64,000 nt of DNA from Tubulanus polymorphus (GCF_964204645.1 NC_134026.1:27856650-27920649), one strand, 5' to 3'. Positions 8,917 through 46,300 are shown, counted from the first letter of the stretch. Translations and numbers: made by a program. The notes: generated from the sequence alone by a model not told the origin.

Positions 8917-8928
8917 GGAGAGAGGAGC

Positions 8929-8960
<32 letters not shown>

Positions 8961-18379: not shown

Positions 18380-20605
18380 AGCAGAATATCTTCCATTTAA
18401 CGAACCGCGATTCTGTTTTAAACGCATCATCGTTGATACTTTTGACCCAACACTTCATTAGATTGAAAAGACAATTTATATTTAGATCAGGAAGTTGTTT
18501 CTAATGGATTCGGCGACATTTGAGAGTTTTCCCGCTGCAGGCGAAACTTTGATTTGTTTTCGTTACAAAGTTACAACCAATGTTAAAAGCAATGAATAAT
18601 AATAATTCTTGAACGTTCCATGGAAACTCGAGGATAAAAATAATTAATAGTTCTAAAGCAACATCCATAAAAACGAGAAATTCATGGATATTTCCACGTA
18701 CTATCCGTGGTGGGTACTACATTGATTTCTGAAACATCTATCTCTCGTTTTAATCGATGATCTAACGGTTTAACTTTTTTAACTTTTCTTTCACTTTAAA
18801 TTCAACATATTGCGCCTTAATCGAAGCGTTTAAATCATATACGCCATCACGTAATAAGTCGTAGGCACAGAAAACTAAAAAAGTACTGAAATAGAAGAAT
18901 GCATCTATCGATGATTTCGAACGATTTATGGATGCCTCATGACTTCGTAACAAACCCCGAAGGGATATATGAAGAGAAACTCAGTGAACCGAACTCATTT
19001 GCAAGTCATAATACATCGCCTTTCAACCTTAAACGTTGTGAATCATTGAATCCATTAAAACGAGTCTTTCATTCAAATTCAATACATGGGAGTTTTTTAC
19101 GGCCAATTTCCATTTGTTGGGTTTGTTTCAAACATCATTAACGCCAGACGGATCGAGGAGAAACAACGCCAATCAATATAGCACCATGATCTACGCCTGA
19201 ATATGTTTTCACAATTCATGTTTGTCAACACTGGTGCTTAAGTGGGGAGTTATTGACCCTGCAAAATAGATTTCTAATTGGCTGCTTATTGAGTGTCGCG
19301 TTCAGATATAGTTTTGGCGCCAGGATATTATTCGTCAACATGGAATTAATGAAAGTATCATTATGACGTGAACGTAAAGGTTGGAAATACTGTCTGCATG
19401 CAACCGCCGATAGCTGGTCGTATCTGTCACATACACAACCAGTGATGGATGAACTTCGTTCCATGCATTCCTCCTCACTTCAAAATATTAATACGATATC
19501 GGTATTTTTTGTCATGCTATGCTCATTATGCAGTTGGTCATCCAGTCAAATAAAGAAAACCACATTTTCTTGAGAAACAAAAAAATCTATAATTTCAAAT
19601 ATAATAGGCAGCGGTTTCACAATGGAAATAGATAAGCTCAGCAATAACCAAATCTTTTCTATCCATCAAACTAAAAACCAGCTGCATATAACAAAATCTA
19701 ATAGTTAAAAAAATCACCTAAAATAATTGAGTCGACGAAGAAGAAGGTGACAGAAGTGATATCTTGCATAACATAATTGAATTATAATGTTGCAGCACAA
19801 ACTCTCTAATAGCTGACCTATCAATATCGATTAACTTCAACAACAAATAGGTGACAGAATCAAAAGACAGCTCATTTCACTTTCAAATACCAATGAGTCA
19901 GATCTGCATCGATGTAGATTAGATAATCTTGACAACCCAAAACAAACTACCAAACGTAAGTCACCAACTGTGCACACGGTCACAGAGGTATTTCAGTCCA
20001 AACATAAAGCTATTCTATTCATTTATAACAAACAGAAGAACAAGATTCAGCACTCAGTAAACTTGAAGCTATGCAGAAATAATTCTGTTAGTAACTGGAT
20101 AATAGAAGTGGCACAGAAACAACTCATCAGATGTCAACGTAATACCTTTTACCAGTAAAAGGATAATGGTTGCTTCTGATAAGAACAGCATCAAAGTACA
20201 TATACATAAGACATGAGAGACAAAATTGAATTCTTCGCAAAAATTCATCATGCTTAAGAATCTGAGCGCATTGCACTGAAAAATGTACATTACGGTAGTA
20301 TGAATTTGTATTTATAGCAGGTTGATATGGTTGGCAGTGAGGGGACACGATGGAGTAACTGCATTAAAGTAATGGCCATCAGCCTTAAGGCACCATTTTC
20401 AAGAGTCATTTGATAAGACATGCATTTATGCCAAGCTTGCAGAAAAACGATAACGATTTTTTCCCTTAAGAATTTCAGGAAGTATCTTTTATGAAACTAT
20501 ACACAGTTTCTATGAAATATGCATACGTCTTAGTATGGTTCATTCTGCCTGATTATAGAACAAAGAGGCAGAAAACGATGTTAGCAATTATCTTTTTCAG
20601 ATATA

Positions 20606-20770
20606 TAGTAAACCTCGGCTAACTCGGGACAAACTGAGACCGGTAAAATCAGTCCAGGGTAAGCAAAGCGCGAGTTGAAGATAGGAAATATAAGTTAAGA
20701 TATCACAAAAATCATTTCATTTTTGGCGAATGTCCGAATTGGACATGTCCAAGTAAAGCAAGGTTTACTG
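20606..20770. mobile_element. pogo/Tigger-like MITE with TA target-site duplication
   Basis: The left end reads TAGTAAACCTCGGCTAACTC. The reverse complement of the right end reads CAGTAAACCTTGCTTTACTT. Both inner ends continue with a GGACA-type motif, giving terminal inverted repeats of about 25 bp, and TA dinucleotides flank both sides. The AGTAAACCTCG start and TA target site match the pogo/Tigger branch of Tc1/mariner elements. At 165 bp it encodes no transposase, so it is non-autonomous. A 140-codon minus-strand frame (20,712-21,134) overlaps it and is therefore unlikely to be a gene. Confidence 0.75.
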
Positions 20771-23700: not shown

Positions 23701-26700
23701 AAGCAGAGTATCGGTTTTTCAATAAACAATCCAGGAGGAAGATGATTAGTGATGTTTCCTATGTCTAACTGACTCTGTGTACAGTAGGGATCAGTCTCAG
23801 TCCCTCGTGATGTTTCTTCTGACACTGAAATGTCACTATCAATTGATGACTTTTGAATATATTCCGCTATGTATTTCAATGACTGAGTTAAATAAGAATG
23901 GTGTGTGACAGCTTAAACTACTTTCTGAGTCACAACCAAACCCCATCGGGTCCAATACAGAATTCTGTTCAAGTTTTAGGACATGATGGTACTCTTAACG
24001 TGAACTTTATTTCAGGTATGAACAGACTCAACATAAAACACACAATTTATATCAGTTGACACTCAAATTACCTTATGTCTATTCGAGACTTAACACAGGA
24101 TATATTTTCTGTAGAAAGATCTCAGTGGACAGAAGGACGAGCTTATCACATATGCCTAATGAAGATAGATCAGCTCATTATTGGACAAGGTCCATTGGTC
24201 TGCAATGATCGGATTCTGCAGCTGAGCAGCAAAGGATAAACATGAATTACACCAAAATAATAATTGGGATAAGATCAGTAAAAGTTCATTGTCTACGTTG
24301 TTCAGATGTGTGATATTTTTCAACTCCAATATTTATCTATTCTAAAAGCTCAATGATCAGATCAGGTAAAGAATCTAGTTCTCAGTGATAGCCGCACGAA
24401 ATAAACATTTCAAGGTGAGAAAGCAGGCAGCTGTGCGAAATGTAGAATTATAGATTTATGATTTGATACTCATTAAAAAAGGCCGGTTATCTTTGCCGAA
24501 TAAACTAAACGCGTCATGCAGAATTCGAAAATGACATCAATCTAATGAAGGAGGTATAATCTAAATTTCTGAAGCATACGAGATGCTAATTCAGAACAGC
24601 ATACAAACTTCGTTCATGTTAAATAGAAAACATTTTTTCTCTATATCGATTTCTATCTCTCAGATATCCACGCTTGAATAGAATGTATTTCGGAGAATGT
24701 TCTAGTCTCAGCTGCAACATATCGGATTGCTATTCAATTCCATAAAATCTAATACCGAGGATCCGTTGCAGTTTGTTAACCAATGTGAAGTCCAGTGCTT
24801 GCAACAGAAGTCACAGTACACGCCACAGTATGGAATAAGATACTTCATTAGTGAGTAATAATTTAGGATTAACGGTTTCAAATACCTTGCAACAAAAAAT
24901 GATGATTAGGGTGAGTCCGATATATTGGTCCTAATCCCTTACATCGCTATTAGCGCACAATTGGACTGCAAAGATAGCGTGTTCATCCCAGTTAATGAGA
25001 ATCTCACAGTATTTTACTGCAGCTAATCCTGCGCGCCACAGAAACCTCATTTATCGCAGTATGATATCACAATAGATGTCAGAAAGAATCTTTGAGTTTT
25101 TTAATGACTCGATATTGTCAGTAATACGGAACTGAATTCAATTTTTAATCAAAAGTGAGCAAAAATGTTGTAAATATGGGGACACAGTTCTTTCAATTCG
25201 ACTACAGCGAAGAATAGGAATGGATTAAAGTGGTCTGACTCTAGCAAATTGATCATTTCCCGTTAAAATTGAACGCTGAACATTATTCGGAACCTTCTAA
25301 AATTCGAAAGAAATCGATTTTCCCCCCGAGGGTTAAATTGTAATGACACGTATTCATATAGCCATGATTCGACATTGTTTAATTTTCCAATTCAGTGAGT
25401 GAAATGATACTGCTTAAAAATAAAGCCGAGGTACTTTCCTATCGGTTGTAGTTATAACAATAACAGCGGCTGATTTTCCATGGAATAATGATCTGTGCTT
25501 GACGATGATCATGAATTTTTCAATAAACACAAGAGCAATATGCCAGGTAGTGCATGAAATGGAAACACACGCAAACGAACGAACCAAACCCCCGTGTCTG
25601 ATGGATCTTCAATTTATATTTTAATGATTACAATCTATTTCAATATCTGAAGCTTACTCCAAGGAATATTCTGTGAGAACGATTCGACCCAGGGCAGTTC
25701 TCTGAACTATCGATACATCGGATATGAAACCACATCTAGAATCGACTTCACTCATTCTGTTAATCTGGAGAAAAAAATGTTGTTCCAGAAACACCTACCG
25801 CAATTTACCTTTCCATTGAATTGAGCCCGATATGATCAATAAACAGCGGCTGAGGTTATTTTACCCATTTGTCACTTGACACGTCTGGAGTCGTTTTACT
25901 GGCTTAAATACGGGTCATTATCGCTAAGATTTTTTCTGATCTGTTTGATTTCGAAAAAATCATTACGATGTAAATTATTACGATTCTTTACACATCAAAA
26001 AACCTCGACTACATCAGGCGTTATCAATCTATACTATCGATACATTCAGTCGTTTGAATTTTGATGATTGCCATTAGAAATACTGATATAATCTCCTCTA
26101 TAAATGCATCAGTTTATCACTCGCTCTACAAAAAATTACATATATATACATACAGTCAAAAATCAATCCACATTAATCTATTACTAAAATATTTCAATTG
26201 CACCTTTAAAGACATCAGTTACGTACATACACATATAAGTAGCATTTCGAGTAATTTGATTCAAGCTGATTATTTCTACCTGTCTTTAGGCAAACATAAA
26301 ACAGCAATCACTTTTTAGAAATGTACACGTATCATTGAAATAGATACTATATATTTATTGGTTTCGTCATTTGAAATGTTTCCATCATTGAGTTTGTAAC
26401 TATAGACTTGAAACGGATAGATGCATTAACTCTGCCTTCAGGAAAAACTGTTCAAACTTCCAAACAAACCATTCATCTGAAAGCGTTTGATAACTTTTGA
26501 AAGTAAAATACAAATAACCTAGAAATTTCCAACTTAAAATCGATATAATTTCATAATCAATTCATAATCGATAAGATATACCCTGTGGAAAAGGCCGATA
26601 AGAAATGAGTAGAAGTAAACGTCATACAAGTTATTAACTGCACGTTTTCAAATTCCAGAAATCATTCGACACAAAATACATCAATAAATTAGTTCCATTT

Positions 26701-29700
26701 TAACGAATTTCAGTTTTAATGAAACATATTAATTTTGAACAGGTAAAGATGCTTGATGAGAATGATTATATAATTCTTCAAGTAATGAAGGTGTGGAAAG
26801 TAATGGCAACTTGTCGATGAATGTAACTATATTTAGAAATCCTGTCATTCGAAATGGGAAAAAGGAAACGAATTACGTAAGTAGATAACGGTATAAATTT
26901 TCATATAAAAAAACACTTCATGAAGAACCTGATGGCTAGAAGCATAAAACTAAGCAAATTGCTCCTGAAATTCAATAAACCATTCAAATTCAGATTCGAA
27001 AGCTTTTAGTGTATCGATATACATAGTTTAAAGGGATATTTGTGCAAAAAACATACTATTTTCATCACAGTAAATAAAAGGCAAAAAAGACCTAGCCACC
27101 TCAGGCGCAATCAATACAGAAACCAAGCTTTTGTAGTGCAGAATGAAGAATTCTACTAGAAGACAGTACTTCCTTGATGACATTACTTCATCCAATAACA
27201 AATTGCCACTTCATCAGCGTTTTGAGACGTAATTTGATTGCGGCCCACTGGCAGGTGTGCCTGATCAATTCTAATTCAATAAACACCAGAAAATGAGGGT
27301 CTGTAGAGCAGCCATGGATCATATTAGCGCCACAATGCTTATAGAAAACAGAATGACGTTCTACGCATAGTGCATATTGAATTGCGAGTCGGAAAACTGC
27401 ATTTTCATTGAGAGAACAGAACTGATCATCGTTCAGTGAAACATATAGAAAGTTTCTGTTACGTAACGTTTCCTCATCTAAAACGGCTCTTTATAAAACG
27501 CGAGGTTAAAAAAGAAGGTAAAGAATGAATCACTAAAACGCTCAGACCTGGATCATTGAAGAATCGTGTGATTCAATTGACTTTTGAGGCGATCTTCTGA
27601 ATGAATTTGTGTTCGAAAGCGACATTTACGTAGTCCTCGAGGATGTGACTACTTGATAAAAGGATTAGCTGAAAAGACGACAACTGATGCAGCTCACATA
27701 TTCCCAAACGCATCAACCAACATCTGAACTAGTCCGACGGGTGAAACAAAAACTTTATCCTTTAGACATTTACTAATCTTATCGGCGTTTCATGTTACGA
27801 CATTTAGGGAGTAATGCTTACGACTTGCATCTCATATTTCACAAACAAACTTTCAATTTTTTGCCAATAATACGGGCATAAAATGTAGAACCGAATCCTG
27901 TCACGAAATACTGAATTCGAATGAAGTGAAAACGGATAGCCAATCTGACATGCTTACTGTAATTTCTCAAGAGGGTAAACTAAATCACACGAATACTCGG
28001 AGAAGTCATGAAACTGTGTCATTGAATATTCATAAGATCCAGGTATTGACCATTGACGAACGCGTCAGTGTTTATAGAGAGAACTATGACTGACGCGAAA
28101 ATCATTGCTGAATCCCGTGAGTGATTTCATTGAAAATCATTGATCTATCAGCCTACGGACACTTGTAAACATTAACCCACACTCGATTTCAGTTACAAAG
28201 ATGGAATAGTTGATGAGAAAATTGGCAGCAGTGACAAAGGAACGAACTATATACATATATGTCAGGATCAACAGCGCTAAACTATACATTTGGCAATTCA
28301 GTAACCTTTCATAAATGAACTAATGAAGCACAAACTATTCTGACAACTTTATGTAAAGCAGATAATTATGAGAATTTCCTAGTCGATCAAATTCATTGAA
28401 ATATTAAGCATCTGATAAACACTTCCATTAGACGTACTAGCGCACGCCCTAAGGCAGAAATCAATAGACTGAATCTGCAATTTACGAATTCCAGATCAAG
28501 AAGAAGAAACTAATCTGATTTGAAAACCGAGAGAAATAGAGGAAACATCGGCCTCTAAGGTGCCCCGAGGAAATCAGAGTGGCTATTACCGATTGCCAAT
28601 AGGCAATCACCCTCAATTGACCCGAGGAATAAGAAGTGAAAAAAATGAGAAGAGAAACGTCATCAATTTCAATGAAATACATCTTAACATTAATCATCTC
28701 TATTTCAACACGAATTTAAACACATTAAAACCAGTTAATACGTCCATTATCTCATTCTAGATGGTGATAAACTGTGGTTAAAGTGTTTAAGGTTAATGAA
28801 CTTCTTTCTATAATAAAATCACTCTAAAACTGAAAACGAAATCAGAATTTATTTCACGCTACTTTATCAAATTCAATCTCGATAGAAGTTTATAAAGTGG
28901 GTGCTGTAATTATGTAAATAGGGACATTTATCGGCTGCATTCGACGCCTTCTGGAGGATTAATTTTATTTCTGTCCCTTTCATGTTAAAAAGTGCTTATG
29001 AAAGATCAGAAAAGATTTGTAGGCGAGCTGAAGAATCATCTCTGATTGAAGTGACAGAATAATCTTTACTCATAACCCGAGTTAAGAAGATGAACCAATA
29101 TCGCAAAAACGGTGTCCATAATTTCAATATGGCAGAAAACGGTCGCCCAGTTGAAGAAGGCGACTAAACACACCGATCAATATTTTCCACCTGCCTGAAT
29201 TCGAATCGATCATTCGACGACGTCAAATATCTACACGCCACAATAGAACTGGACATCTTTGGAATTACTGCTAGCATCAGCGGGGTAATTTTCTGAAAAA
29301 GATCGTGTGCTGCACGAATAATCCGCGAACATCATTTTCTGGCTGGCTGGCTAGTGTGAAAATAACCATGAATACCAAACAAGCGATTTCGCCTGAATAT
29401 TCATCATGTAGTTCACAACATTTCGAAATAACTGAATGCTGATGAGGTTCCGATAAGCAATTAGTCGATAAGAATTGTCTAATTAATATAGCTCTTCGTC
29501 ATCGGTGTAATTTATTCCTACACCAGCACTTCTTAATGATAGTATAAAGGGATAATAAGTGACCAACCAACCAGCAGCGATTCATCCAGATCGTTATGAC
29601 TGTCTGCTTATTATTCGTACATATTTGTTCACTTTTCTTGATATAACAAATGCAGATGAGACACGATGGTGCACATGAAGATATAGACACGCGATGATGT

Positions 29701-31907
29701 TATGTTTTCCAATTCATTCGTCGCGTGGCAAGAAAAAAAAAAAAGTCGGAAATGTCAAGTACACTGAGAAAACATTAGCTTACGAAGCATGCTGTAGTTA
29801 TTAATAAGTAAATATAGCTGAACGATAACACACCAGGATAAGCAAGAATCAATAAAAGACCGAAATCTTATGCACCGAATGGGCAGGTGATAAGCAGATA
29901 AGACTGTAGTAGACATCAAATGGCTTCATTAACTGAACGAGGTTCCGAAATCATGACTGATGTTTCCAAGGATTGGAGCTCGAAGGTCGAAGTGAAGACG
30001 TTGATAAGGCTCTTTATATTTTGTCAAAGTGGAGATTTTCTATAAAAGGTGATTGTCCAATATCTTCCGCTAAACTATCCCTTTGAAGGGTTTTATCCGT
30101 AAGACATGAAAAATAGTGGTAAGCCTGGCTCATCACAAGGTCGTTGTAATACTTCATCCACTCTTCAATCCGATTTAAAAAAAAAAAAGAAAATGCTCAT
30201 GAAGAATGTGATCAATATTCGTACTTCATCATATCCAGCAAAGCAAGATGAACAACTAGTATCGAGAAGAGATTTCGGGGCAATGTCTGAGATATGGATT
30301 TTAGGGAACGAAATACAACAAAACAGTCTGAGCCATCTTTTCAATAGGCACAAAATAAATGATAGAATTGATAGGCAATTTGGGATGTAGTCTAATGTTG
30401 GCGACTGTTTTCTGTGTAAGGGATAAGTCCAGTAAGCTGGCTGTCATATCAAAGTTGATGTATCGGAACCATTGTGTGACACAGCAGCAGATACTGAAAT
30501 TTTCCGAAAGTCTTTTTTCATCACTGGACATCATAAGTCTTTCAGTCAGCATTCCATCCCATCTACTGAGCTACTTGACCCAATCGTAGCGGCATTATCC
30601 TGCAACTCACGTATCAGGCATTATTATATGACAAGGCATTTCATTGTAGCCATGTAGTAAATTTGACTCTTCCGCGAGTGGTACAGAGTGATACAAATTG
30701 TACCACGCTACGTCATTTATTTCACTATCTGATTGCCGACTCTAATGCAACATACGCAGTCCAATTATTAGTTCTCTGAATGGGTAGAAAATCACGTTCG
30801 AAAAAAACCTAGCGATGAAACACAAGCGAGTTCTGTGAATTAATCACGAGACTTGGAAATTGATGGCTCCTTTCCATATAATAGCAGTAGGTTTCATTAT
30901 TGAGAAAGTTGAATGGCATCTCTTAACATGATACAAGAACTTTAGTTTCCATTTAGATGTAATAGTTTCACTTATGACTAACGCCGATGGGTTTTAAGGA
31001 CTTTTCTGCATTCATGGAGATCTTCGAATTTTAGTTTTCTGGAATATTGGAAAATTCATTCCGAAATCTTAAACTTTTCAGATAACGTATTATGTACCCG
31101 ATTGACGTCATCTCTAAAGAGAGGTTTTAGATAACCTCATAACTGGCCCGACCCGATCAATCATGTTCGGGGATAATTGTGATAAAATCATCGCTTATTG
31201 TTATGAAAAAATGTCAAAACGTTGAACATGAAAATTCTATTTACGAAATTCCCTGGTGGTGAAATTCAAGAAATCTCCATCAAACTTGAAAACAACTCAA
31301 CTGAGTTACAAGTCACCGATCAATAAACTTTGCGAACAGTTTTAATTATGAAAGCTCGCATTAATTGAATCATTATGAATATTACCCGTCAACCTGTCAG
31401 CTTGCAGTATGTTCAAATTGCATTTTAGCTAATGGATAAATCATAAATATCTGATATCCTCTTGAAGTAATCAATTTTTTCCATCACTAATTCGACGACT
31501 TTTCCATAAATTGCTTCATTAATACGACATTATATAATTTCAAATTCTATTACAGGCATAAATGAATGTTACATTCATTTAATGATTAGAAAAGGAACTC
31601 TAGAGCCTGATCTTTAACTTCGATATACAACTTATATCAAAAATTATATCTAGTTTGTATCAATTTTAGTCGGTAACCTGAAATCGATGAATCATGTTCA
31701 CTGAAACCATTTGCACGGAGTATGGAGGCACGTTACTGCTGTACTGCCTCCAGTGGTAGATTCTAGAAGCTGATCGGTACAGATCGAGAGCCATCTGGTA
31801 GAAGCACAAGGTACTGATATCGGAAGCTGCCGATACATCTGATGCCATCTATACGTCTATAAGTCATAAATGCGCATCTTCTTACATTATCTATCTGAAG
31901 TACATAC
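20771..31907. other. Non-coding AT-rich DNA, probably downstream intron of the SRRM-like gene
   Basis: No exon with convincing splice sites plus family content was found. I looked on the minus strand for the expected Ser/Arg/Lys-rich continuation of the SRRM-like protein and saw none. Open frames are short and overlap one another. A 90-codon minus frame at 23,607-23,879 has no recognisable motif. If the exon at 31,908-31,988 is joined to further exons, they lie here unseen or beyond position 1. Confidence 0.5.
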
Positions 31908-34900
31908 CTGTTTTGTGTGACTCTTTCTTTATCCATCAGCATTTTCCGGAATATAGCGACTTTCCTCAAAACCTCCTCGACACTACACCTGAAATAATCA
32001 AATCACAATGATGGTTATATAGCGCTTCGAATATATTTCAATAAATCAACTGCCTTAAAAATACAACAACTCAAAATGCAAATGATGAGAATCTTATATA
32101 ACATTATATAAGATTATTTTTCGCATTGTCTGGTGTCTATCATCTAAATATCAAATATAATTATCAAAATAAGCTGAAAATTATAGTTAATGAATTAATT
32201 GCTTCGAGGGGATACATAAAAAACAGCAATAATTAATGTATAGCTGCATTTACAGTACATTGGGTCAACCATATTGCTAGCTCTAATGAGAATGAATTGA
32301 TGTTTTTGATTGAGGAGACAACTACTCATCGCCGTGTCTTTAAGCATCACAGTAATCTTGATGGCAAATAGAGCTCTGCAGTGAAATCAGATATAAGGTG
32401 TGACGTGACTTGCACGGAAAGCCACAGGGTATAGTCAAATGCCTGATTGACAAATTTATATCAGCGAGTCTTCAAAATTGCCTGAAACAACTAATGCCAC
32501 AAAGCTGTATGATATATTCGGTTCAATAATTTACCAGGGCTTAAAAACGCATTAGCTAAAAAGGTCCGCAGACAGCTTTTCAAAAATGTGAACTAGAAAT
32601 CTCCACAGACAAACTGTCTGACTAATAAAACCATTGAATGATGCTTTTATCTCTCACAGTTACCACTTCATTAGACAGTTCAGTCATTATTTCAAGTGCA
32701 TATGGCATAAAATATGGACATGCACGATGTAATTTTATAGGATTCTGAAGCCGACTGATTATCCCTAAGACAATCATCTCAGATCGTTTTACAGCCCCGG
32801 ATTAATCATAACAACCGATATATCGCAATAGCAAATAAGCCATAAATCTTCTCTTCGCGCAATTTCAGCGAAATTGACAAATAACATCATTTCCAACGAA
32901 TGACAAATGTTTGTTCATCTTCCGAGCGAATTTAAGATGAAATAATGCTTTAACTGACCAACCACTGGGACTTAAATATACAACGTTATTCATTGACAAA
33001 ATATTCTCTTTTGATCATGCGCGTAGTGTAAGATGGGAAAACATGAAAAATTGATCGAGTTGCAAAGGATAGCCTCGACATGCGAGAATCTAATTAACTG
33101 CTAAGTCTATTCCGCTTCATCAAAGTCCAATGAAAATACATCATGACTTAGGAATAACACGTGGCTTAAACTGATAATCTATATTCCATGAATGGTAAAT
33201 TTGTAATACCAGCTGCGGCGAAAAGCGATTCTCCAGTGGGAGGATTAATGTTTTAGAAAAAATATATTAGATGACAACAGAAAGATCTAATAGAAAGAGT
33301 TGATGTGAACTGAGAACATGACAACATTATGATGAGATGAGGAAGATTCGTGATCTAAGAATGGAAACCATGAATTATTCATGTAACTTTCAAAATGTAC
33401 ATCTGCTCAGTACTAGAGAGTTAATAGAGAAGTGAACAGTTCCGAATAGATCTGTAGCAATTAACCCTACAGCATCGAAGCCACATCTCAGACACTGATG
33501 TCTACTAAGTCACTCTAATGCTATACAAATAGCTTCACCTTTGACACGGCAATTTCACATTCAGCAGAACAGTAAGAATTCTACTGATCGATTGAGGACC
33601 GAGTGGTAATTGGGCTGACAAGAGCTGCTGCTGCTGCTGCTGCTGCTCTGGTCAGAATGAAGTGTTATTCATGGATCACTGTACATACTTAGATCTCAGA
33701 CGAGAGAGAAACACTAAATATATGAAGCCTCTGAATCCATTTAGGCAATGATGAATGTTGCTTCGTATAACCTTCCAAGGCTAATTCCATTTAATAATCA
33801 GCGGACTGTGAATCGATGAGGCTTCACCGACCATATATACACAGGTAATGGCCAGATGGTTTATCAGTGTTAATATTGACAAATATCTTTCTGCACCATG
33901 TTTGGTATTAGTGGCTGCTTCCTCATCCATCGATACCGAACATTAACGGTCGTAATCAGTGCACTCGTATGTATTCCTTTAGAAACATTCTATTCATGAT
34001 TTTGTCTGATGGTTTAATGATTTGGGGTTTTCTTTTTTCAAGTTTATAATTTTTCCATAAATTTTCATCGTGATAATTAACGTCTACTAAAACATTCGTG
34101 CATGAATGGATTCACATCGCGAAACAGACCTGACACATATAGAAACAGAGAGACAAAAGAAATAATGCCTTTTTCTGTTCATCAAAAATAGATAAATATC
34201 AGTGAAAATTCCATTGAAAAATGGTAGCAATGCTTAAGTATTGTACAGAATATAAAAGAAGCCACAGAATATGTATATTTTTCCTTTTTCAGTTTTTCCT
34301 AAATGATAACTTTCTTGCTGGAAGGGTTGCCCTTATTGCCGTCAAAATGGCTCTGATATATTAGAAGGGCACGTAATCTTGAGATGATTCAAACAAAAGT
34401 GTCGCCATGACTGGTCAACATATCTGAATGGTCACCAGCTAACTGGGCACCACACTGACCAAGGTGTCACAATAATAAAGACTTCCAAACTCTGTAACAC
34501 AGTGATCCAGCGGTTTAGTGGTTAGCACACTGGTTGACCCAGCGCTAGACCCAGGAGGTTCAAACCCTGGATGGGGCTAGGTAATACAACGCATCTGTTG
34601 GACACTTTTTAATGACAATTACATCAAACAACAAATAAAACTAACCAAAATATATTTTTTCTCTGTTAGGAATCTTATTTTGAAACTTTTTTAATCTCAT
34701 TTTCTTGTTTTACCTAGAAGCTGCTTTTTAAGTGAAAAACCTTCAGAATAAAAGAACTGCTTTTGGAAATTTCTGGCTATGGGCTTGTTGAAAACTATTT
34801 TCCAATCTTTTTGGAAATTGTTGTAAAATCTTCCTGAGAATTCAATGCCAAATTCTTCACATTCTCCACAGACCATTTGGAACAGTAGAGAAAACAGTAG

Positions 34901-35843
34901 CAACAAACTAAAGACATTGTCTGAGAAATTCCACAAACGGTACAAATACAAACTCAAACCAGCGAAATAGTGATAATTATTGGTTTTTCATCGCAATGAA
35001 ATGGAAAGATAAAAGGCTTAAATTTCAAATCAAAAAGTGGACTTCTAACGGCATTCTCATCATACGACATGAAATAATACACACAGTGAGTTCTTATTAT
35101 TAGAGATACAAGATGTATGGTATTTACTGTAATAGTAGTATAATACCACAGGCAAATACCACTCAAATATCACTCAATATTCAAATACAACTTTGATATC
35201 TGAAATCATGTTCAGTAGTGGAGAAATACCATCAGATTCAAAATCAGGAAAATACAAGAAGAATCTAGTATTTATTGATGAGTAACAATGTTTCAAGTTA
35301 GACTTAGAGGTAAAACATTGATAGACACCAGATTTTTTATTGATGATTGTATAAAATCTAATCATCGAAAACAGTAAACGCTATGAAAAATGTCGAACAT
35401 GATCAATAAACTCGAAATCAAATAAAAACCATACATTTTACACGTGTTATTGCAGCTTTTCCTGGTCAGATCGCAAACATTCAACGTTGCGTGCTTTGAA
35501 GAATTTTCATGAGAGGATGGCAGAAAACAGACGTATAGATTTACGAACAAACACGAACCAACCAGAACTCCAACTCACCAAACCAAAAACCAACCAGAAC
35601 TGATCCGAGTTCTTTAAGGACTTACCCTTGTTCTTCCATGAGCGCCTTCATTTCCATACACTTCATTTCGACTTGTCGGTCCATATCAATGGATTGTTCC
35701 GTAGGCAATTTTGTCGGTGGTGAAGATGGTTGTCTTTTTAAATCGGAGGTGGCATGCTTAAATAAGCTACCACCATTCACAGTGCCATTACCATTAGTAT
35801 TATGCTGTATTGACGACGCTTGAGAGAAAATGCCATCATACAT
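31908..35843 (-). CDS. SRRM2/3/4-family splicing factor, N-terminal cwf21 domain (partial gene)
   Basis: Two minus-strand coding exons are visible. Exon A runs 35,843 down to 35,626, after an acceptor at 35,863, and ends at a GTAAGT donor in phase 2. Exon B runs 31,988 to 31,908, between a TTATTTCAG acceptor and a GTATGT donor, also leaving phase 2. The joined frame begins MYDGI, like the MYNGI start of vertebrate SRRM2. It then has a Ser/Asn-rich stretch, then VEMKCMEMKALMEEQG and VEEVLRKVAIFRKMLMDKE, which match the cwf21 helical pair of SRRM2 and especially SRRM3 (ELKCMELQEMMEEQG). Known family members are spliceosomal SR-related proteins; cwf21 contacts the active spliceosome, and the animal SRRM2/3/4 gene gave rise to neural microexon regulators. 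About 98 residues are visible. The Arg/Ser-rich remainder is missing from the window or not recognisable. The SWAP/CID protein U2SURP also has cwf21, but its sequence fits less well. Confidence 0.82.
32090..32115. repeat. Perfect AT-rich palindrome, 12-bp arms
   Basis: AATCTTATATAA and its exact reverse complement are separated by two bases (CA). It may be a chance palindrome in AT-rich DNA or a short hairpin in the intron RNA. Confidence 0.6.
33624..33647. repeat. GCT trinucleotide microsatellite, eight copies
   Basis: Eight perfect GCT units. On the minus strand this is a CAG repeat within an open frame of about 40 codons (Gln run, then LLSAQLPLG) followed by CAAAG|GTGAAG, a fair splice donor. 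It lies inside the SRRM-like intron. The upstream acceptor is weak, so I annotate only the repeat. Confidence 0.85.
34500..34625 (+). mobile_element. tRNA-derived SINE fragment
   Basis: The head carries an A-box-like TAGTGGTTAGCACACTGG and, about 30 bases later, a canonical B box GGTTCAAACCC. This is the internal RNA polymerase III promoter layout of a tRNA. The acceptor and T stems do not pair well enough for a working tRNA, and unrelated sequence follows (GGTAATACAACGC, then A/T-rich). It is therefore read as a SINE head with a short body. Confidence 0.65.
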
Positions 35844-35911
35844 AATGCTACCTGGACAAAATCTAAAAATACACAAAAATATAGACTGCTAAAGTTTCTG
35901 TATACGTACAT

Positions 35912-35936
35912 GTATATATATATATATATATATATA
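35912..35936. repeat. TA dinucleotide microsatellite
   Basis: An uninterrupted TA run of about 12 units, some 50 bp upstream (minus-strand sense) of the SRRM-like cwf21 exon acceptor. Confidence 0.8.
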
Positions 35937-36093
35937 GATACCTTCAGCAGGAAATTGGCGAAAGAAAAATGTCAGCAACAAATAATCAATTCAACAAGTT
36001 TTTATTAAGTAGAAATTGTTGATAGAAAAAAAGAGTACGGCTTCTTTAGCTAAATTATTCGTTTTAAACTTCTAGTGTTTTTATTTCCACTAC

Positions 36094-36261
36094 TGGGGTG
36101 GGCGCAGAAAAAGCCTGTTAACCTAACCGTGGTTAGTGGCTAATCTGTGGTTAAGCTAACCAGTGGTTAGCCAACAGCGTTTTCTTGCACCCATTTATAC
36201 CTAACCACAGTTTACAAACCACGGTGAGCGCTAACAGTTTTTTCCTACGCCTGCCCCTGAT
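36094..36261. mobile_element. Palindromic MITE with about 26-bp terminal inverted repeats
   Basis: The left end GGGGTGGGCGCAGAAAAAGC continues into CTGTTA. The reverse complement of the right end is GGGGCAGGCGTAGGAAAAAA, then CTGTTA. The interior is itself full of mirrored TAACC and GGTTA blocks (CTAACCGTGGTTAG, CCTAACCACAG, AACCACGGT), so the roughly 165-bp unit can fold almost end to end. No open frame fits. The superfamily is uncertain: TA flanks both ends loosely, and I cannot define the duplication. Confidence 0.65.
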
Positions 36262-36458
36262 ATTTTACTTCAAAGCTCCAATTTCCAGGTGTGATTCAAA
36301 ATCTTGATATCATGGAGGTTAGTATTAACAGGATGTGATCAGGCACTCATCTAACATTCCACATAAATTGGACAGCAATCAGGGATGGTTGTCACAATCA
36401 GTTACTTTTGCATCAAGAGACTGCCACACAGTCCAAAAACCACGAGTATAGTCCACAG

Positions 36459-36750
36459 CAGGGGTGGATCTAGGAATTGATAACCGGGAATTTAGAGTAA
36501 GGTGCTTAAAATTCCTGGGCTTAGTCGTATACAATACATACATAATAAATGAACAGCGAGCGCCTTAGAGGGGTTAGAAAAAATAGAAAATTTAGAAAAA
36601 GATCATCTTTCTGACCATAAAAGTGATTCTAACACAAAATGACCGGCAATAATTTCTGGCTATGTTGTGAGAATGTTATCTTGGCTAAAGATAGGAGGGG
36701 CCGACCCTCTGGGTCCTTCTTACTCCGGTCCTGGTCAATAATTTTGAGTC
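36459..36750. mobile_element. hAT-like element remnant
   Basis: Position 36,459 begins CAGGGGTGGATCTAGG, which resembles the CAGGGGCGGATC ends typical of many hAT elements. Near 36,696-36,720 a GGGGCCGACCCTCTGGGTCC block looks like the pyrimidine-rich inner part of the opposite end, but the terminal CAGGGG motif is not found there. The element is probably truncated, and the right boundary is approximate. Confidence 0.4.
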
Positions 36751-37689
36751 GTAAATTAATCAACTATTTTCAGATACTAGGGTTTACAAACTCTGAAGAT
36801 TTCTTGAATCAACTACGATATAAGTAAACCAGAATACATGACATAACCACAAGGCAAAAGTAAACACACTGTGATTTCCCGCAGTTACTTTGATTAATTA
36901 ACGAAAGTACATATACAATCATCAGTCACGTATATCGAAGAGTTGCGGAGAGCCGCAAAACATGAATGTGTGACTGCACAGTAATATCAATAGCTGATAA
37001 ATCAGCAGAATAATCCTGTGATGCTGTAATACTGTACTAATAATCTCGTATGTATTTTCAGCTATAAGCGAATGTTATCTTAATTCATTGCGAAAGATTT
37101 GGCCCAGAAACTTTCTACAAATTACGCTTGGAATACAGGGAGACATCCATGCGTTATTTGAGAGGTAGAGTAATTGGGAAATATTCTGAACTTATCGGAG
37201 GACATGATCGCAAGACGACACCGGTGCCTTATACTCAAAGGTCATTGACATTAACAATATTTTCCCTCATCTCGGAAACTGTAGCGATGAAATTGAATCA
37301 ATGTTGCAGAAAGAACAGTAGTATATCCTCGCAGAGGAATCATTAGATTATGCTTCATACGCATAGCTAGCAGTGAGGGTAGGACAAAAATAATTCGCGA
37401 CACAAGAGTATCAATGACATTCTATTCAAAACACAGAGGTGAATCGAAATGGTTTTTAAGAAATAAAACTACATAAGCTGAGCTGTGCTATGAGTATCAA
37501 AGGCAAAAGTGGATTAATGGCTGAAAGATGTAGAGAATTACAATGCATAGATGTGGAGTAATCATTACAGTCTAAGATTACTCGATAAGTCTATCGTTAT
37601 TTACCAAACTATGGGCTTAAGAGTCCTTGACCAAACTGATGTGAGAAAATTCCATCATCATCTTATAGGGATGCAATCACAGATATGAT

Positions 37690-37855
37690 TTGACTGGGCC
37701 AAACCGTCACAGGCTAAATGAGGCACAACCAAAAACGTTGGTCCCGGCACGGGTCAAATTAATCGGTGAACACGCTTTCTAATTACGCATGGGCCAAATT
37801 CGACTCAGGCCTGGTTCAGGCCAGTTTGACTCGAGCCAAATCATGATCGCAACTC
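37690..37855. repeat. Unclassified repeat-like stretch rich in GGGCCAAA and CAGGCC motifs
   Basis: The segment alternates GGGCCAAA, GGGTCAAA, CAGGCCTGG and GAGCCAAATC, and has higher GC than its surroundings. It resembles part of the stretch at 50.85-51.08 kb (TTGGCCCA, CCAAATCA, GTTCACAC). It may be a diverged copy of the same small transposon. No clear ends. Confidence 0.3.
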
Positions 37856-40440
37856 TATATTGACTGTATCTTTACACGAAAGGTGATACAGACATCATAT
37901 CACTCGGCGAAAATGAAAAGAACGGTGGTCATTCATTGTAACCGAAGACGACACCAAGAAATATGTCAAGACGACACATCTCCATCGAGACAATAGCGAA
38001 ATAAAGCACTGAAACTTAATTAGGTTTTCAGGAAATCAACACAGCTGTGGCTGGGTTATAAATGTGACTGAAATTACTAATGTAATCAGCTGCAGGCAAA
38101 TTGACTTTTATGAAAGAAAGAATTCAAGCATATTTCATTATTATGGATATCATCAGCAAAGCGCCGAAAGACCATTACTCTGTGACTGTTCTTGCAGCGC
38201 TGTAGCTTAATTTCATAATACATCAAGAATTTCAGTTGAAAATGAAAAACGCTCCTATTTGAAAAGTTTGGGATTATGAATTATACATGGCGCACGCGAC
38301 TCTGCACAAGATTTATTGGCTAAACCTGAAGGCATTCAATTGAATAAACTTTTAATTATTGATCATACGAACAGCCATACTTTGCATTCTCTTGTAAATC
38401 CTATGAATTAGTAATCAGCGAAATGAAATAGAGGGAAATATCAGTGAATTGGAGTAACGTTATACTTTGACATTCCCAAGGGATGGAATACAACGCTACA
38501 GCATAAAGTATTCAAGGAATACCATTAATCCGAAGACTTTCCGACTTTCTACGATTTACAGATTATATACGTTTTGGGTGACAGAAAAACCAAGGCTAGA
38601 AAAAGTCCCAGAAAAACTTAGACTAAAATTCACGTAGGCCTAACACCATTGATCGCATCTTTTCAATGACATGTCCGTAAATTGAAGTAAGAAGAGAATT
38701 TCGTGCAACTGCAACCTGCAACCGGAAGACAAGAATATTGATGGTAAGTCATTAGAAAATGGTATCAGTGATTTGGAGACTAAGCCACTTTATTTCCATC
38801 TCACATCCCCGGCAAATCAGATACAAAGTCAAGCCACATGAAGCATTGATCGGGTGTGGTAGAGATATGCTTGATTGCGGGATTAACATTTAATCCACAA
38901 AGATTAAAACTATTCCCACAGTTAATCAAAGAATGCGAATGTGAAAGCCTGTATTAGACAGCTAGTCCAGTCAACTACACTTCCAGCGGCCCTAGTGCGA
39001 CAATCATAATACAAACACTAATCTAATCATAAAGCATACCTCCAAGCATCAATTACCATGATTATCAAATTTTCATTTTCACTGTCTGAGTACAGCACCC
39101 TTGCCTAGAAGTCAACACTTCAGACATAATCTACTTTTTTTTAATTCATCAATTTCAATGGCTATAAGCTATTAAATCATAGTACAATGTAATTTGCGTG
39201 CATGAATGTAATTGAAATATTTTTCTGAAGACTTTTTGAAGAGTGATCCAGAAATCTTGCTAAAATAGAATACACTATCCGCCTTAAGACAATAAGCTCA
39301 ACTCAATGTCTGACCCGCTGCCCAAAATCAATAACCATTTGATATTCTATCAGGGAGAAAAGAGAGAAACGCAATTTATCATATGAAAATCAATTGTTCC
39401 TAACTCTATATACAAAAAGAAAGATGAAAATGCAAACAAGTGCAAATTACTTATAAAAGCATCATGTAAAGGTTGTGGAAGTGCAATTCTAAAAATTCAG
39501 CATTCTTTTAGAAGGAATATCAATTCTACACATTTTCAATTTCAAACATCTTAAATATTATTGCCTTACTGAGCTGAAGCCATACATAGGCATAATTATA
39601 TTCCAAAAGAGGCTCGCTAGTGTTCGAGACAAAATTCGATCATTGGATTTTCAGCGTCATAAAAGTGTAGTTTCCAGATAGTTTGCTGATGATACGGATA
39701 AGAAGGATGACAGTCAATTGATGTTGTAAATGTATTTCTTTATAAGGAAGCAGTAGTAAATCAATGAAAGCAGTCAAAGGATTTAAACATTGGTACACAG
39801 ACAAAGACCACTGGGGTTGTAATCACTGGTCGGAGTTCAATAACAGCGAAGTGAGCAAGGATTCTTCATCTCGCAATACAATACGGCAAACCCGAGTTCA
39901 GTTCTGAGCGCCATATATAACGAATTCAATACCGACAGAATACTGGAAAATTACATTATCACCCTTCTATTGATTCCATCTTATGTTTATTTGACAAATG
40001 AGACGGGGATCTTCTCATAGCAGTAGAACAGTCACTATAGTTACCAATAGTAGAAGAGAATGCTCAAGAAGAAAAACCTTGAATTCGTTGTGGCAAATTA
40101 TTTATGTAAGTCCATATTCGTTGAAAATTCTTTTTATTATTCACATCGAATTGCGAAAAATCTATAGGTAATGAATCGTTGTCGCAACAATTCATATGAT
40201 ATACCAATTTGAATATGCCTAAAGTATATCGCGGAGTGAAAGTGGCTTCTGACATTTCAGTTGAGCGCAATTGAATTTATCGTAAGGGAGCATGTTGACT
40301 TGACAGTCTGATCTAGCAGCAAAACCATTTGATGATCGCGCGGATAAAACCTGAAAAAGCTTTCTGCGGCAATTCAATAAACAAAACGACAATGTATCAT
40401 TTACTCTTTGAGGAAATTATTTGCCACATAGTTTAAAAAT

Positions 40441-40745
40441 ACCCCATCAAATAATAGTGAGGCCACTTTTCGCCAATTTACGGATTCCCTGAATTTTTCC
40501 TGATTTTTTCCACGTCATAACACAAAATTCCCTGAGTAAATTTTAGCAGTTTCTTGGTTTAGAATGTTTACAATTTATTAATTTTTTTATGAATTACGTA
40601 GTGATAAAGTCAATAACGGTCAATGACTGGTCAATAACGAATCCAAATTACGTGAGTTTTTCAGGTTCTTCGCGAAATAAGTCAAATTCCCTTTGTATTC
40701 CCAGATTTTTCTGATGCCCTGAGTTTTCCAGGTCAGTGACCACCC
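40441..40745. repeat. TTCCCTGA-rich dispersed repeat, copy 1
   Basis: The stretch has multiple AATTCCCTGA or TTTCCCTGA units with CCAGATTTTTC and TTTTCCAGGTCAGTGACCAC near its right end, and GTGAGGCCACTTTT near its left. The latter two are roughly mirrored. The same phrase recurs at 43.5-43.7 kb. This composition is typical of a widespread class of invertebrate DNA-transposon remnants. Confidence 0.5.
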
Positions 40746-43589
40746 TGACTAATGAAAGGATTGCAACGTATAATAATCATAGGTTGATGGATGTATCAGA
40801 AGATAAAACATATCATTCCATTGTCATTATTAGAAATCAGTCGATATCACAGCATTATAATAACTATAAGAACTGTGACAGTTTCATCACACACGGACAC
40901 ACATACAATGAGTATAAGTGTTCAACTTAAGTAGCTCTTCACAAAAGCTTTGTGACTAATTCATGGGTTAATTATCAGTAGTGCAAACACATTCAATATA
41001 AGGCAATGTGACTATTTTAACGGATTTCAGCGCAATAGAATATCACAGCATCAGCAGCAGTAGATGATGATGCTGATGATTGCCATTTGCTTGTTATCAA
41101 TGATCATTTCAACATACTCACCAAAAGAATAACAAAACTATCTACGACAGGATTCTGTGTCATTGAGTGTCTTCTGAAATCAGAAAAAAAATTACTGACA
41201 AAATTTGCAAAGAAAGATTAATCGATATCGATGCAATAATAACAATTCTTGAAATGAACATCTCGAGTAATACCTTTAATTTTGACAGAAAATAGAACCA
41301 ACTCCAGTTTAATCAGTCACTGTTCTACTGAAGCCGCGCGACAAATATCTCGTCCTGAAAATAAAAATATGCACGATCAATAGACCAGGAGTTGCAATTT
41401 AATTGGTTTTCCTGCTGAAAGTTGATGGTTTTTCCCGAAGGAGCCATACTGTGAAAAAGATGAAGTGGAAACTTGAGCCGTACAAGTATAAAGTACAATT
41501 TCATTAAATGCTATCTACTGAAACAAAGAAAATTAGACATAATATGCACAAATATATCATACATTCCTGTCTCATGTCAACTCCTAATTCTTCTCAATGT
41601 AAAGATTTTAGCATAAATGACATTGATATAAAAACACTTTTATTTACGGTAAAAGCATTAATTCAATGCTTGTATTATGTCGTCTCTAATGTTAGATTTT
41701 CCAGCATATTTCTGTAGCATGTGCAATTATTGTTGATGATACCTCAAATGCATAATGATGGCACCAGCTTGAAATATAGATTATTATTCATTGACAGTGA
41801 CAGGATTTTACAGAAAAGAGAAAAATATTGCCTAGTTACAGTAAGGCAGAATATTTGATTTATATACCGATAGCATATACCGGTAAATCATAATATATTT
41901 TTCTATATCTCATAACTAATGCAAAATAGAGGGAGGATATGATTGATCAGATGTGCATACCAATAACTGTACCATCCCCTGATACTAAGGTATAGAACAT
42001 TGACAAGAACGTGCCATTTTTAGGTCTATAAGACACGGAACATGAATTGAGTTTCCAGGAACTCAAGCCAGATTATTCATGAAACCATTATACTGGTCGT
42101 ACTAAGTGATGTCAACTTGCAGTAGTCAGATTGGTTATCCGGAGAATGTCGCACTGATGCAGTTTCTACACATCATTATCATGAAAAGGAAGCAATTTTT
42201 CAACAGCAAATGATTTCAGCCATGATACCTTATCTTGCGAGACATTTGCATATTCATGTATGGACAGGTTTTCAGATAAAATGAATTATTTTCGGTAGAT
42301 TAAAAAATGTGTCTATACAATCCAATACAATATTCAATCAATAGCACAAAATGCCGGATCAAAATTCAGCCTAATCAAGAATTAACTCATAACTCATAAG
42401 AGTATATTTGAGACAGTTTTCTAACAAAGTAAGCGTATAAAAGTAGCGTAAGCACATGGAAGATGCTAGCTTTTTTAAGCAACAATATAATTGCCTTACT
42501 GATCGTTGATTCTGAGATTACTGATTTCGGAAACTCAAAAAATGCAACAGAATTTCATCGTTTGATGGTTTAATGATGATTTCACATAGAAGCTGTGTGA
42601 TCTTCTTCGTTCCGTTTGATCTGTGATAGATATACTTGATCCTTACCTCGTTGAAAGCTAAGCTGGAATCGCTTGGAGGGACAAATCCGCAATTTTCCAA
42701 CAGACATCAAGCGTCTACTAGGCGGATAACTCAAGATTTTTGTACACAATTTCACCCTCCAACATGCTAGCATGTTATAATGTATACCGGCATTGTGAAA
42801 CATACATCAATAATTCACTAGTCGCAATACTGGAAGGTATGCCATCGCATTTATACCATGAATATAAATGAAAATGGCCGGGATTATTTTCAGATGAGGA
42901 CTTCACTGATGTATCGGTCACAAGTATCAGCTGACAACAATCAGTATACATCAGTAAAACATGATATGAATAATGAACAGAATATAACTGACAATAACCA
43001 ATTTCTGTATAGGATGATGGATGCATGACAAGATCATTATGAATTGATAAGCCGTGCGAAAAAATTATACTCATATTCAAGATAAGAAACTATTGGTAAT
43101 TAATTTGTATGAACAGCATCTGAGACTGAGACTGAAGCCGTAGTAGAGAATGTGAGAGATATCAAATATCAACTCGTCAAATAGCACTGCAACTTTAGCA
43201 CTGCAAGATATTTTTTTGCAATATAATGAATTGTTTCTTTCGTTAATAATAATAGCCATTCAAAAACTGCACTACTCAGCGTCTCAGTGCGGTTTAAAAT
43301 CAAAATTAAGCTGCAAAAACACATTACGATTGTTAATAAAAATGTTCTTTAAAAAGGATTGTTTTAAGATGAGATTTATTCAAAATTCATCTTACTGCGT
43401 AAAAACACCTGACCATCTTCGCAATACTAATGGCCTACAACGCATACACATGGTGGACAAGTTTCTATTTGACTTGCTTTCCCCCCCCCAACTATTCCCT
43501 GAAATGCAAATAGTTTTCCCAGACTCGATCTGCTAAGAATCCAATCAATTGATACAAAATATGAAAGACATTGGATTATACACGTGATA

Positions 43590-43718
43590 ATAGCAATCTA
43601 AACAAATTTCCCTGATATTTCCCTGATTTTAAGCGTTTTTACAAAATTCCCTGACTTTTTTAAAGAAAACAAAATAACGTGACTTTTCCCCGATTTCCAG
43701 GTATTAAGAAGCTACCCA
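43590..43718. repeat. TTCCCTGA-rich dispersed repeat, copy 2
   Basis: It contains TTTCCCTGATATTTCCCTGA, AAAATTCCCTGACTTTTT and GATTTCCAGGT, closely echoing the repeat at 40.44-40.75 kb. It directly abuts the hAT-like element starting at 43,719, so that element may have inserted at its edge. Confidence 0.5.
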
Positions 43719-44173
43719 CAGGCGCGGATCCTAAGGACTAGACCTTAAGCAAAATGTGAATGAAAATAAATTCCCCAAAATCAAAAGCACTCTCCCTTGC
43801 TCAAAAAGGCACTATTCTTAAATAGATATTATTGTTGCTCTATAAGTTTAATCGAAAAAGGGCAAAATTTTGCCAAAAAAATCTTTAAATAAGGTATGAT
43901 ACAGTGGCATGATGCCAATAAATGGCACACAAATTCTGAACAAATCTCGTAAAAAGGCAGGCTAAGATCAGTTTTTTATTAGAATCTGCCCTGTTGACCT
44001 TACCAAGTGCTTGGAAATGCATTAAAATAAACATGGAATTTGAAGGCCCCCATCAGACCCCCGTTATCTGCTTCGAGACTAAGTCGCTCGCTGGGCATGG
44101 ATACTGGCCCTTTTCAAAGTTGGTGCCCTTTTTCACTGTGCTGTAGTCATTGAATGGCCTGGATCCGCGCCTG
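43719..44173. mobile_element. hAT-like non-autonomous element, 455 bp
   Basis: The ends are perfect 13-bp inverted repeats: CAGGCGCGGATCC at the left, and its reverse complement GGATCCGCGCCTG ending at 44,173. The next bases diverge (TAAGG versus AGGCC). This CAGG-G-GCGGATCC form is typical of hAT ends. The interior has no transposase-like frame. Flanking octamers (GCTACCCA and CTGATATA) do not match, so no target-site duplication survives. Confidence 0.65.
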
Positions 44174-44204
44174 CTGATATATGTCAAGAATTCATTCAAA
44201 GACC

Positions 44205-45170
44205 AAATAGGCCTATCTAATAAGAGTTGATTGTGAAGCAAATTGTAGTCTGGAATTATTCTGAGAATCAAGCATGAAATTTTGCTCTTTTAAATATGAA
44301 ACGGTAATAATGCTGTAGGCTAACTAATAGAAATAGAAGGAACATCATAGCAAGTCTCACAAGAAGTATGAATCATTAATATAAATCGTTTTTATTGCAT
44401 TAATCACAGATTCAAAGGCTGATTAAACATATGCAGTTTGATATCCAGGGCCTGTGTAAAATAAAGGTCGCACATTGTGATTATATAACTAAATATCAGA
44501 GAGTAGATGATGGAATATAGAATTTGAAGACACAAAATCAATTTTGTATTGATTGGACGATATTATTACATGTGCAATATGTGGTTAGGCGCATAGAGTA
44601 GTTTGCATCACACCTCCTCCAATATCTGAAAACTAACTGAAGGGCTCTGTTTATTATAGGCCTACACTAACTATCATTATTCCAATGATGAAAGCTGCGA
44701 AAATCTAATAAACTGAGAGCTGAGCAGAAAAAGAAGTGAACTATTTCTATGTGATTTTTTTTGGCTTATACTTGGAAAATACACTGCATTTTCAAAAATG
44801 GCAGACATCGTGAATAATGATGTATTTGTACTCATTGTACTTTGATTATTACGAATATGAAATATATTTGTTTGGCACCACAAAGTAGGCTAATTGCAGA
44901 AAGGATTTTTCATAAATAAGTCCCAGACCCTATAGCCTATCCCTTGGACATCATACTTAAGAATACTGGCCTATTTGAATAATATAAACTCTAAAGATTC
45001 AACGATAAATGAATAATGAAAATCAAGTAGGCCCAGAAACAACTGGATTGTGCTGTAGGAGACAAGAAACCACTGGAGTCTGCTAAAGTGATAGAAATCT
45101 AAAAGATGACTTTAGCCTAGCTTTTTATGGAGGTTTTTTACTGAAATATTATCCTGTTCCTAACATAGGC
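44205..45170. other. Cluster of TAGGCCTA/TAGGCT motifs
   Basis: At least nine occurrences of TAGGCC, TAGGCT or their complements lie within about 1 kb (near 44,205, 44,312, 44,653, 44,883, 44,931, 44,965, 45,027, 45,108 and 45,162). The motif is scarce elsewhere in the window. The units are not tandem. The cluster could be a decayed satellite or a binding-site array. No gene is recognised in it. Confidence 0.4.
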
Positions 45171-45972
45171 TTCATAAATAATCGATGAGCACACTTAATA
45201 AAGATCGAGAGAATTGTGATGATCTATTAGATTATAACGGGTACATTTACCAGCCATGTTATTCTGACGGAATATTAATCCATCTTGCATGAAGATAAAG
45301 ATAGATGAGACAAGTGTATCAAATTTACACTGACTGATATCGATTTCATAAACTATAAACTGAAAGCAAATAGAACCAGATTTCATACAAATCTATATCT
45401 TATCATTGTCTGACAGATTCATTACATAGTCCATTTTTTATACCTTAAATCACTAAATAAGTAAAGAATAAGGAGACATTTCCATAATCCGAAAAATTGC
45501 AGGCACAATTATTCAGCATCCATGAAATATCAATACAGCAAAATGATTTTGTTTATTTTTGCCTATTCAATATTGCGAGCAAATGCATCATTGTAGGATC
45601 TAACCATCCAACCTAAAAATCATCAATAACTGGCATGTAGCATATTTATCATGCCTAGTAAGTCATTTCTGAAGGGTTTAAATGTCAGCAACAATCCATA
45701 ATCATGTATTGAATAGTGTATCCATTCATCCTACCTAATTTAGAAATCACTACAATTTACGTGAAAATCATTCCAAGTCATTTAAAGAACCGGGCTAGCA
45801 AATGGGCGCTCCACACATATTTCTCCTCAGTAACAATGATATCACTAGCACACTTATGACAAGAGCCACTGGCCCTGCCTATATAAAGCAAAATGATATG
45901 CCCTGGTCATTGTAGAAAGTGTGGTTTTCAAATCTGACAATACTACCGTCTAGTCTAAGTCTAATAAAATGA

Positions 45973-46017
45973 CATGTCACATCACCACCAACCCGGTGTG
46001 TGGGAGTGTGTGACATG
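45973..46017. repeat. Short inverted repeat upstream of the SRRM/TMEM8 promoter region
   Basis: CATGTCACA at 45,973-45,981 is exactly reverse-complemented at 46,009-46,017, with an inner CACC...GGTG pair. It could form a small stem-loop. Its role is unknown. Confidence 0.45.
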
Positions 46018-46117
46018 GAAAATTCATCTTCTTCCAGCTCCGCTCCGATTCAAGCATCCCTGAGCCCGAACTCAAAACTAAACTAAAATATTACGCAACA
46101 TAACATAAATAACTTAC

Positions 46118-46300
46118 CGATATATAACCCAGTCAAATACTGCACCGAGACGATAACTCTAAAGACATTCAGCTAGGTGTGCTTCTTCATCTTCCTGCCA
46201 GCTTCCGCATCGCGTCAACTCGAAATATGACTAAAATCCGGTTGTGGAATTGAAAATCCGAAACCTACTTTTATTGTAGCCCTAAAACGAAATACGAAAC
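46118..46300 (-). other. Candidate 5' leader exon of the SRRM-like gene
   Basis: On the minus strand the sequence reads GGTTATATATCG|GTAAGTT, a near-consensus donor, so an exon would end at 46,118. Joining it to the acceptor at 35,863 gives the frame CGA TTT TGT CCA GGT AGC ATT ATG, with a TAG stop upstream. This supports the MYDGI methionine as the start. The leader would contain two short upstream ORFs (one ATG...ACCTAG of five codons, one of about eleven codons). The transcription start and the 5' boundary are unknown. There is no coding evidence, only splice-site quality and frame logic. Confidence 0.4.

Follow-up and report, generated by a model that had tools for sequence, protein, structure and literature searches.

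Is the cwf21-encoding gene in a 64,000-nucleotide stretch of the Tubulanus polymorphus genome (C2:27856650-27920649, plus orientation; hereafter the window) a single locus for all the roles of the SRRM2/3/4 splicing-factor family, or have those roles been divided between genes? Nonvertebrates have been described as having a single Srrm234 gene (PMC8797185, PMC10551640). The cwf21 region of the family binds Prp8 in yeast and humans (PMC3675011, PMC4381068), and the eMIC domain of SRRM3/4 and fly Srrm234 promotes the inclusion of neural microexons and has U2AF1/2 and SF1 as interaction partners (PMC8797185). We searched the genome (268 Mb, 77 contigs) and concluded, with a probability of about 0.82, that the C2 locus is a dedicated, eMIC-bearing, SRRM3/4-like paralogue, and that the SRRM2/Cwc21 role lies with a separate gene on C4.

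Two exons of the C2 gene, both open, lie inside the window (Table 1). Exon A encodes the first half of cwf21 and ends in EEQG at a phase-2 donor (...ATGGAAGAACAAGG/gtaagt, or GG/gtaagt; slashes mark exon borders). Exon B lies between the acceptor tttcag/GTGTAGTGTC (tttcag/G) and the donor ...CAAAACAG/gtatgt (CAG/gtatgt), and the phase-2 junction of the two reads ...MKCMEMKALMEEQG/CSVEEVLRKVAIFRKMLMDKERVTQN. An earlier note on this DNA had described them as phase-compatible exons of an SRRM2/3/4-family gene with very large introns, and had proposed a profile search of the joined exons. The exons proved real: cwf21 (PF08312) scored 35 bits in the joined model, above the gathering cut-off of 23.2, over profile positions 7-44 with positions 1-6 unmatched. 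The best PDB match was human SRRM2 (E = 3.4e-6). The family assignment is upheld, and one intron of the gene is indeed about 35 kb long. NCBIfam yielded nothing relevant. The same note had likened the N-terminus to SRRM3/4, and here too the sequence agreed: it reads MYDGIFSQASSIQHNTNGNG..., with MYDGI present and the SRRM2-type GLxTPRGSG segment absent. Human SRRM3 keeps cwf21 without this N-terminus; we take such likeness to SRRM3/4 sequences as a lead, not as a test.

The assembly was extended over C2:27828650-27856649, where negative numbers give window-equivalent positions below window position 1. The RS-rich (arginine/serine-rich) and eMIC exons that had been predicted there were found on the same strand, with the eMIC about 12-14.5 kb below the window. 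The joined model has ten exons and encodes 384 aa, or 416 aa once the probable exon at -3415 is added, and spans 50,305 bases from ATG to stop. All nine introns (ten with the -3415 exon) are GT-AG and in phase 2, so the internal exons are multiples of three in length. After cwf21, exons -4978 to -12048 encode an Arg/Ser/Lys-rich low-complexity region. SRRM_C/eMIC (PF15230) scored 42 bits in this model (cut-off 27), covering positions 2-67 of 67. In the genome search the same profile gave two matches, both on the minus strand of C2 (27844731-27844603 and 27842358-27842320), and either alone was just under the cut-off, as expected of a domain split by an intron; the core, RRRIGSPSHLDKRRIT/SARKRPIPYYRPSP, is intact across this phase-2 intron. 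Genome-wide, the profile and the eMIC peptide matched only at the C2 locus, save for one noise match (E = 6.7).

Missed exons were sought by scoring acceptors, donors and codons on the minus strand; the plus strand served as control, and the codon table was derived from homeobox exons alone. From 31,880 to the start of the window, in all nine phase combinations, nothing exceeded the control (best 10.8 v 14.5). This agrees with the earlier statement that no exon is recognisable for 31.9 kb downstream of exon B; the next credible exon lies outside the window, at -3415. The scan recovered most of the RS and eMIC exons as well as -3415..-3507, which scored 24.4 against the control maximum of 14.5. 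Several of the exons accepted here, such as eMIC part 1, scored below that maximum with this codon table, and a weak exon may therefore have escaped the scan. The -3415 exon probably belongs to the C2 gene; with it the long intron measures 35.3 kb, and without it 36.9 kb. Its likeness to the THQ segment of SRRM2 was suggestive in phmmer, yet the peptide did no better than shuffled peptides, so the assignment is drawn from the splice and codon scores. A tblastn fragment at 7214, GVLQREDR, which we presumed to resemble SRRM3, was set aside for want of a usable exon at that place.

Used as a query against the genome, the 100-aa product of exons A and B found both exons and one further locus, C4:6715533-6715727, within the SRRM2-like paralogue of Table 1. 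The C4 protein matched human SRRM2 (5mqf chain S) with E = 1.1e-53 over residues 1-163. It has the complete SRRM2 N-terminus and the THQ segment, its cwf21 scored 57.6 bits, and the Pfam profile search found no SRRM_C/eMIC match in it. No third locus appeared in genome-wide searches with cwf21, both proteins and the eMIC peptide. As predicted from the genome sequence, the SRRM2-type protein and the eMIC are thus found at two loci, C4 and C2, and not in one gene. There would be no division of labour if the C4 gene were a young, non-functional retrocopy, as its uninterrupted coding sequence, against at least ten coding exons in the C2 paralogue, might suggest. But it is the better conserved copy, open for 358 codons, and the sole locus with the SRRM2 N-terminus; its G+C content at third codon positions is 0.60, much above the 0.36 of the C2 gene. 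Moreover, a tatttttttgcag-type acceptor about 35 bases upstream of its ATG makes an intron in the 5' untranslated region likely, the coding sequence itself being uninterrupted. We consider a dead retrocopy highly improbable.

Over the 48-residue cwf21 core, C4 and human SRRM2 share 31/48 identities, C2 and C4 24/48, and C2 and human SRRM2 18/48; the HERKR stretch is mostly lost in the C2 protein. Judged by these identities, the C2 cwf21 is a diverged copy and that of C4 the conserved, SRRM2-like one. The segment THQ(I/L)AE...FG(I/L)S...YVDGSSFDP that follows cwf21 was not found by tblastn in the window or in the 28 kb below it. Because a separate, conserved SRRM2-like gene exists, and because the C2 gene is without the N-terminal motif and the THQ segment, the latter looks like a dedicated eMIC paralogue. 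The same evidence tells against the earlier view of this locus as the ancestral all-in-one Srrm2/3/4 gene, whose exon layout would reveal the making of the short and RS-rich isoforms. On that view the locus would have to produce the SRRM2-type isoform too, which is probably mistaken, since this role seems to belong to C4.

Several points nevertheless weigh against a dedicated gene. The exon joins below the window are predicted from phase, splice signals and domain completeness, and 35-37 kb separate exon B from the next exon, so that the RS/eMIC exons might form a gene of their own. This is very improbable: strand and order agree, all junctions are in phase 2, including that from exon B to the next exon, and neither half has another cwf21 partner or eMIC locus in the genome. 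Cwf21 with eMIC is also the known architecture of the family. An eMIC can exist without cwf21, as in vertebrate SRRM4. Retention of the eMIC-splitting intron (...RRIT/gtaa) brings an immediate stop, and isoforms without the eMIC might thus still come from the C2 gene. This intron contains AATAAA-like signals, which chance renders uninformative; tallies of poly(A) and TTTNTTT motifs in the introns were uninformative too. As to generality, the division is observed in this one genome.

Such isoforms would suit a C2 gene that was still an all-in-one Srrm234, producing ubiquitous and neural proteins by alternative 3' ends, with C4 merely an extra copy. The fly does so from one locus (PMC8797185), the symmetric phase-2 exons are freely skippable, and the introns leave room for alternative ends. 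Besides the RRIT/gtaa stop, the RS region has a 64-base intron whose retention keeps the frame open throughout, until a stop codon is reached at the following donor; this might serve as a switch to a protein lacking the eMIC. However, C4 keeps both the SRRM2 N-terminal motif and the THQ segment, of which the first is lost and the second undetected in C2, so a C2 isoform lacking the eMIC would be a poor SRRM2; its cwf21 match also begins only after profile position 6. On balance we think an all-in-one C2 gene unlikely.

As a dedicated eMIC paralogue, the C2 gene would encode some 384-416 aa, in which a diverged cwf21 is followed by a Lys/Ser/Arg-rich central region and then by the eMIC at the C-terminus. 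If the eMIC works as it does in SRRM3/4 and fly Srrm234, it would bind U2AF/SF1 and bring about neural microexon inclusion, for which SPSHLDKRRITSARKRPIPYYRPSP is predicted to be needed. The diverged cwf21 may bind Prp8 less well, and the core-spliceosome (SRRM2/Cwc21) role would fall to the C4 gene, as its conservation suggests. With two loci present, neural restriction is most simply read as having moved, at least partly, from the choice of 3' end to transcriptional control of a dedicated gene. It would then depend mainly on where C2 is transcribed, as in vertebrates, and not on alternative last exons, as in flies.

On the 5' side, the donor of a candidate leader exon at 46,118 scored 4.9, within the range of the real donors of the C2 gene (0.6-8.9). 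The exon stands head-to-head with the start of a TMEM8/PGAP6-like gene, about 0.2-0.4 kb away. This placement fits a divergent or shared promoter, and the leader exon is therefore plausible, though unproven. The CpG ratio at 46.1-46.3 kb was slightly elevated, at 1.18-1.24 against a mean of 0.82 (standard deviation 0.31), but many places are higher. As read from the sequence, the first exon of the TMEM8-like gene, at about 46,523, encodes a signal-peptide-like MAKCHKILGLYGQLYLHKALIIYFLISTHTVFVP/G and joins GYVIEHSHDG... at 47,004. A TGACGTCA site, like a cAMP response element (CRE), lies just upstream of that gene.

The right half of the window is gene-dense, with alternating strands; the finer names TTC4-, DIMT1- and NLK-like are our presumption. 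On C6, ten Hox genes form a compact, ordered cluster. Assigned by eye from homeodomains and flanks, their order is Post2, Lox2/Lox4, Lox4/Lox2, Antp, Lox5 (with KLNGP), Scr, Dfd, Hox3, pb and lab. No Post1 was recognised within the cluster; one weak homeobox match lies 185 kb off, at 5133544. Lox5, Lox2, Lox4 and Post2 are lophotrochozoan marks, and the cluster therefore identifies the genome as lophotrochozoan. A search of the assembly for mitochondrial COX1 gave no match.

Table 1. Positions of the C2 gene model, its C4 paralogue and neighbouring features. Negative positions lie below window position 1.
Feature	Window position	Assembly position	Strand	Remarks
Candidate 5' leader exon	46300..46119		minus	5' limit approximate; GTAAGT donor
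Coding exon 1 (exon A)	35843..35626		minus	opens ATG TAT GAT GGC ATT
Intron A-B	35625..31989		minus	3,637 bases; GT-AG; phase 2; interrupts cwf21
Coding exon 2 (exon B)	31988..31908		minus	CSVEEVLRKVAIFRKMLMDKERVTQN, completing cwf21; phase 2 at both ends
Long intron, in-window portion	31907..1		minus	runs on below window
Probable extra exon	-3415..-3507	C2:27853234-27853142	minus	SAQTPTYCCKPFISQRLQDQKENEPEINSKR
Exon	-4978..-5040	C2:27851671-27851609	minus	SSSPSPTRREKKKKKKRHHD; GT-AG, phase 2
Exon, RS/K-rich region	-9424..-9480	C2:27847225-27847169	minus	GT-AG, phase 2
Exon, RS/K-rich region	-10052..-10138	C2:27846597-27846511	minus	GT-AG, phase 2
Exon, RS/K-rich region	-10726..-10872	C2:27845923-27845777	minus	GT-AG, phase 2
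64-base intron, RS region	-10873..-10936	C2:27845776-27845713	minus	
Exon, RS/K-rich region	-10937..-10984	C2:27845712-27845665	minus	GT-AG, phase 2
Exon, RS/K-rich region	-11417..-11572	C2:27845232-27845077	minus	GT-AG, phase 2
Exon, eMIC part 1	-11917..-12048	C2:27844732-27844601	minus	RS repeats and RRRIGSPSHLDKRRIT
Exon, eMIC part 2 and stop	-14296..-14461	C2:27842353-27842188	minus	SARKRPIPYYRPSP...SSADSYRK
SRRM2-like paralogue		C4:6715844-6714768	minus	uninterrupted coding sequence, single open frame
TMEM8/PGAP6-like gene	46523-50254		plus	DUF3522 match (E = 1.2e-23) in later exon
PAP2-like lipid phosphatase	53745-54469		minus	Pfam match below cut-off
TTC4-like TPR protein	55477-56870		plus	Pfam match below cut-off
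DIMT1-like rRNA adenine dimethylase	~58046-58640		minus	Pfam match
NLK-like kinase	61716-63469		plus	Pfam match
Hox cluster		C6:5318228-5634756		homeobox matches; ten genes on same strand

The gene family is known, and its two-locus arrangement in a lophotrochozoan is apparently undescribed in the literature searched. That search, which did not extend to gene databases, found no description, in a lophotrochozoan, of an Srrm234 duplication or of an SRRM2-like gene accompanied by an eMIC gene of its own locus; this is weak evidence of absence. In the published contrast, eMIC activity depends on transcription of the separate genes SRRM3/4 in vertebrates and on alternative 3'-end processing of a single Srrm234 gene in nonvertebrates, and a nonvertebrate with two loci does not fit it. 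A genome of this kind is a natural experiment on whether duplicating a gene and splicing it alternatively can replace each other as means of confining one activity to neurons. In it, too, the cwf21 copy conserved for the core spliceosome stands apart from the copy free to diverge beside an eMIC.

Compared with known systems, the predicted division suggests a resemblance to vertebrate SRRM2 v SRRM3/4, unlike the single nonvertebrate Srrm234 gene. Vertebrate SRRM3 and SRRM4 (nSR100), like the C2 gene, carry a C-terminal eMIC with the core SPSHL-(E/D)-RRIT-SARKRPIPYYRPSP and have a separate SRRM2-like gene in the same genome. The C2 protein differs in being shorter, lophotrochozoan and strongly diverged in cwf21, and its SRRM2-like partner has an uninterrupted coding sequence; the split into two genes is possibly independent in origin. 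One tentative scenario, which we hold with some doubt, is that this lophotrochozoan split occurred independently of vertebrates, possibly through retroposition of an mRNA without the eMIC. The intron-poor C4 gene would then have taken the ubiquitous SRRM2 role, while its intron-rich C2 parent lost the SRRM2-type N-terminus and became a dedicated neural microexon factor controlled by transcription.

Drosophila Srrm234 (CG7971) likewise has cwf21 and eMIC at one locus, the eMIC being 3'-terminal and spread over more than one exon (PMC8797185). There, however, both roles come from one gene through alternative last exons under Elav/Fne, whereas here the SRRM2-type protein belongs to the other locus. 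With SRRM2, Cwc21 and C. elegans RSR-2 the C2 protein has cwf21 in common, but it is without the N-terminal motif, has no detectable THQ...YVDGSSFDP and has an eMIC added; the C4 protein clearly belongs to that group.

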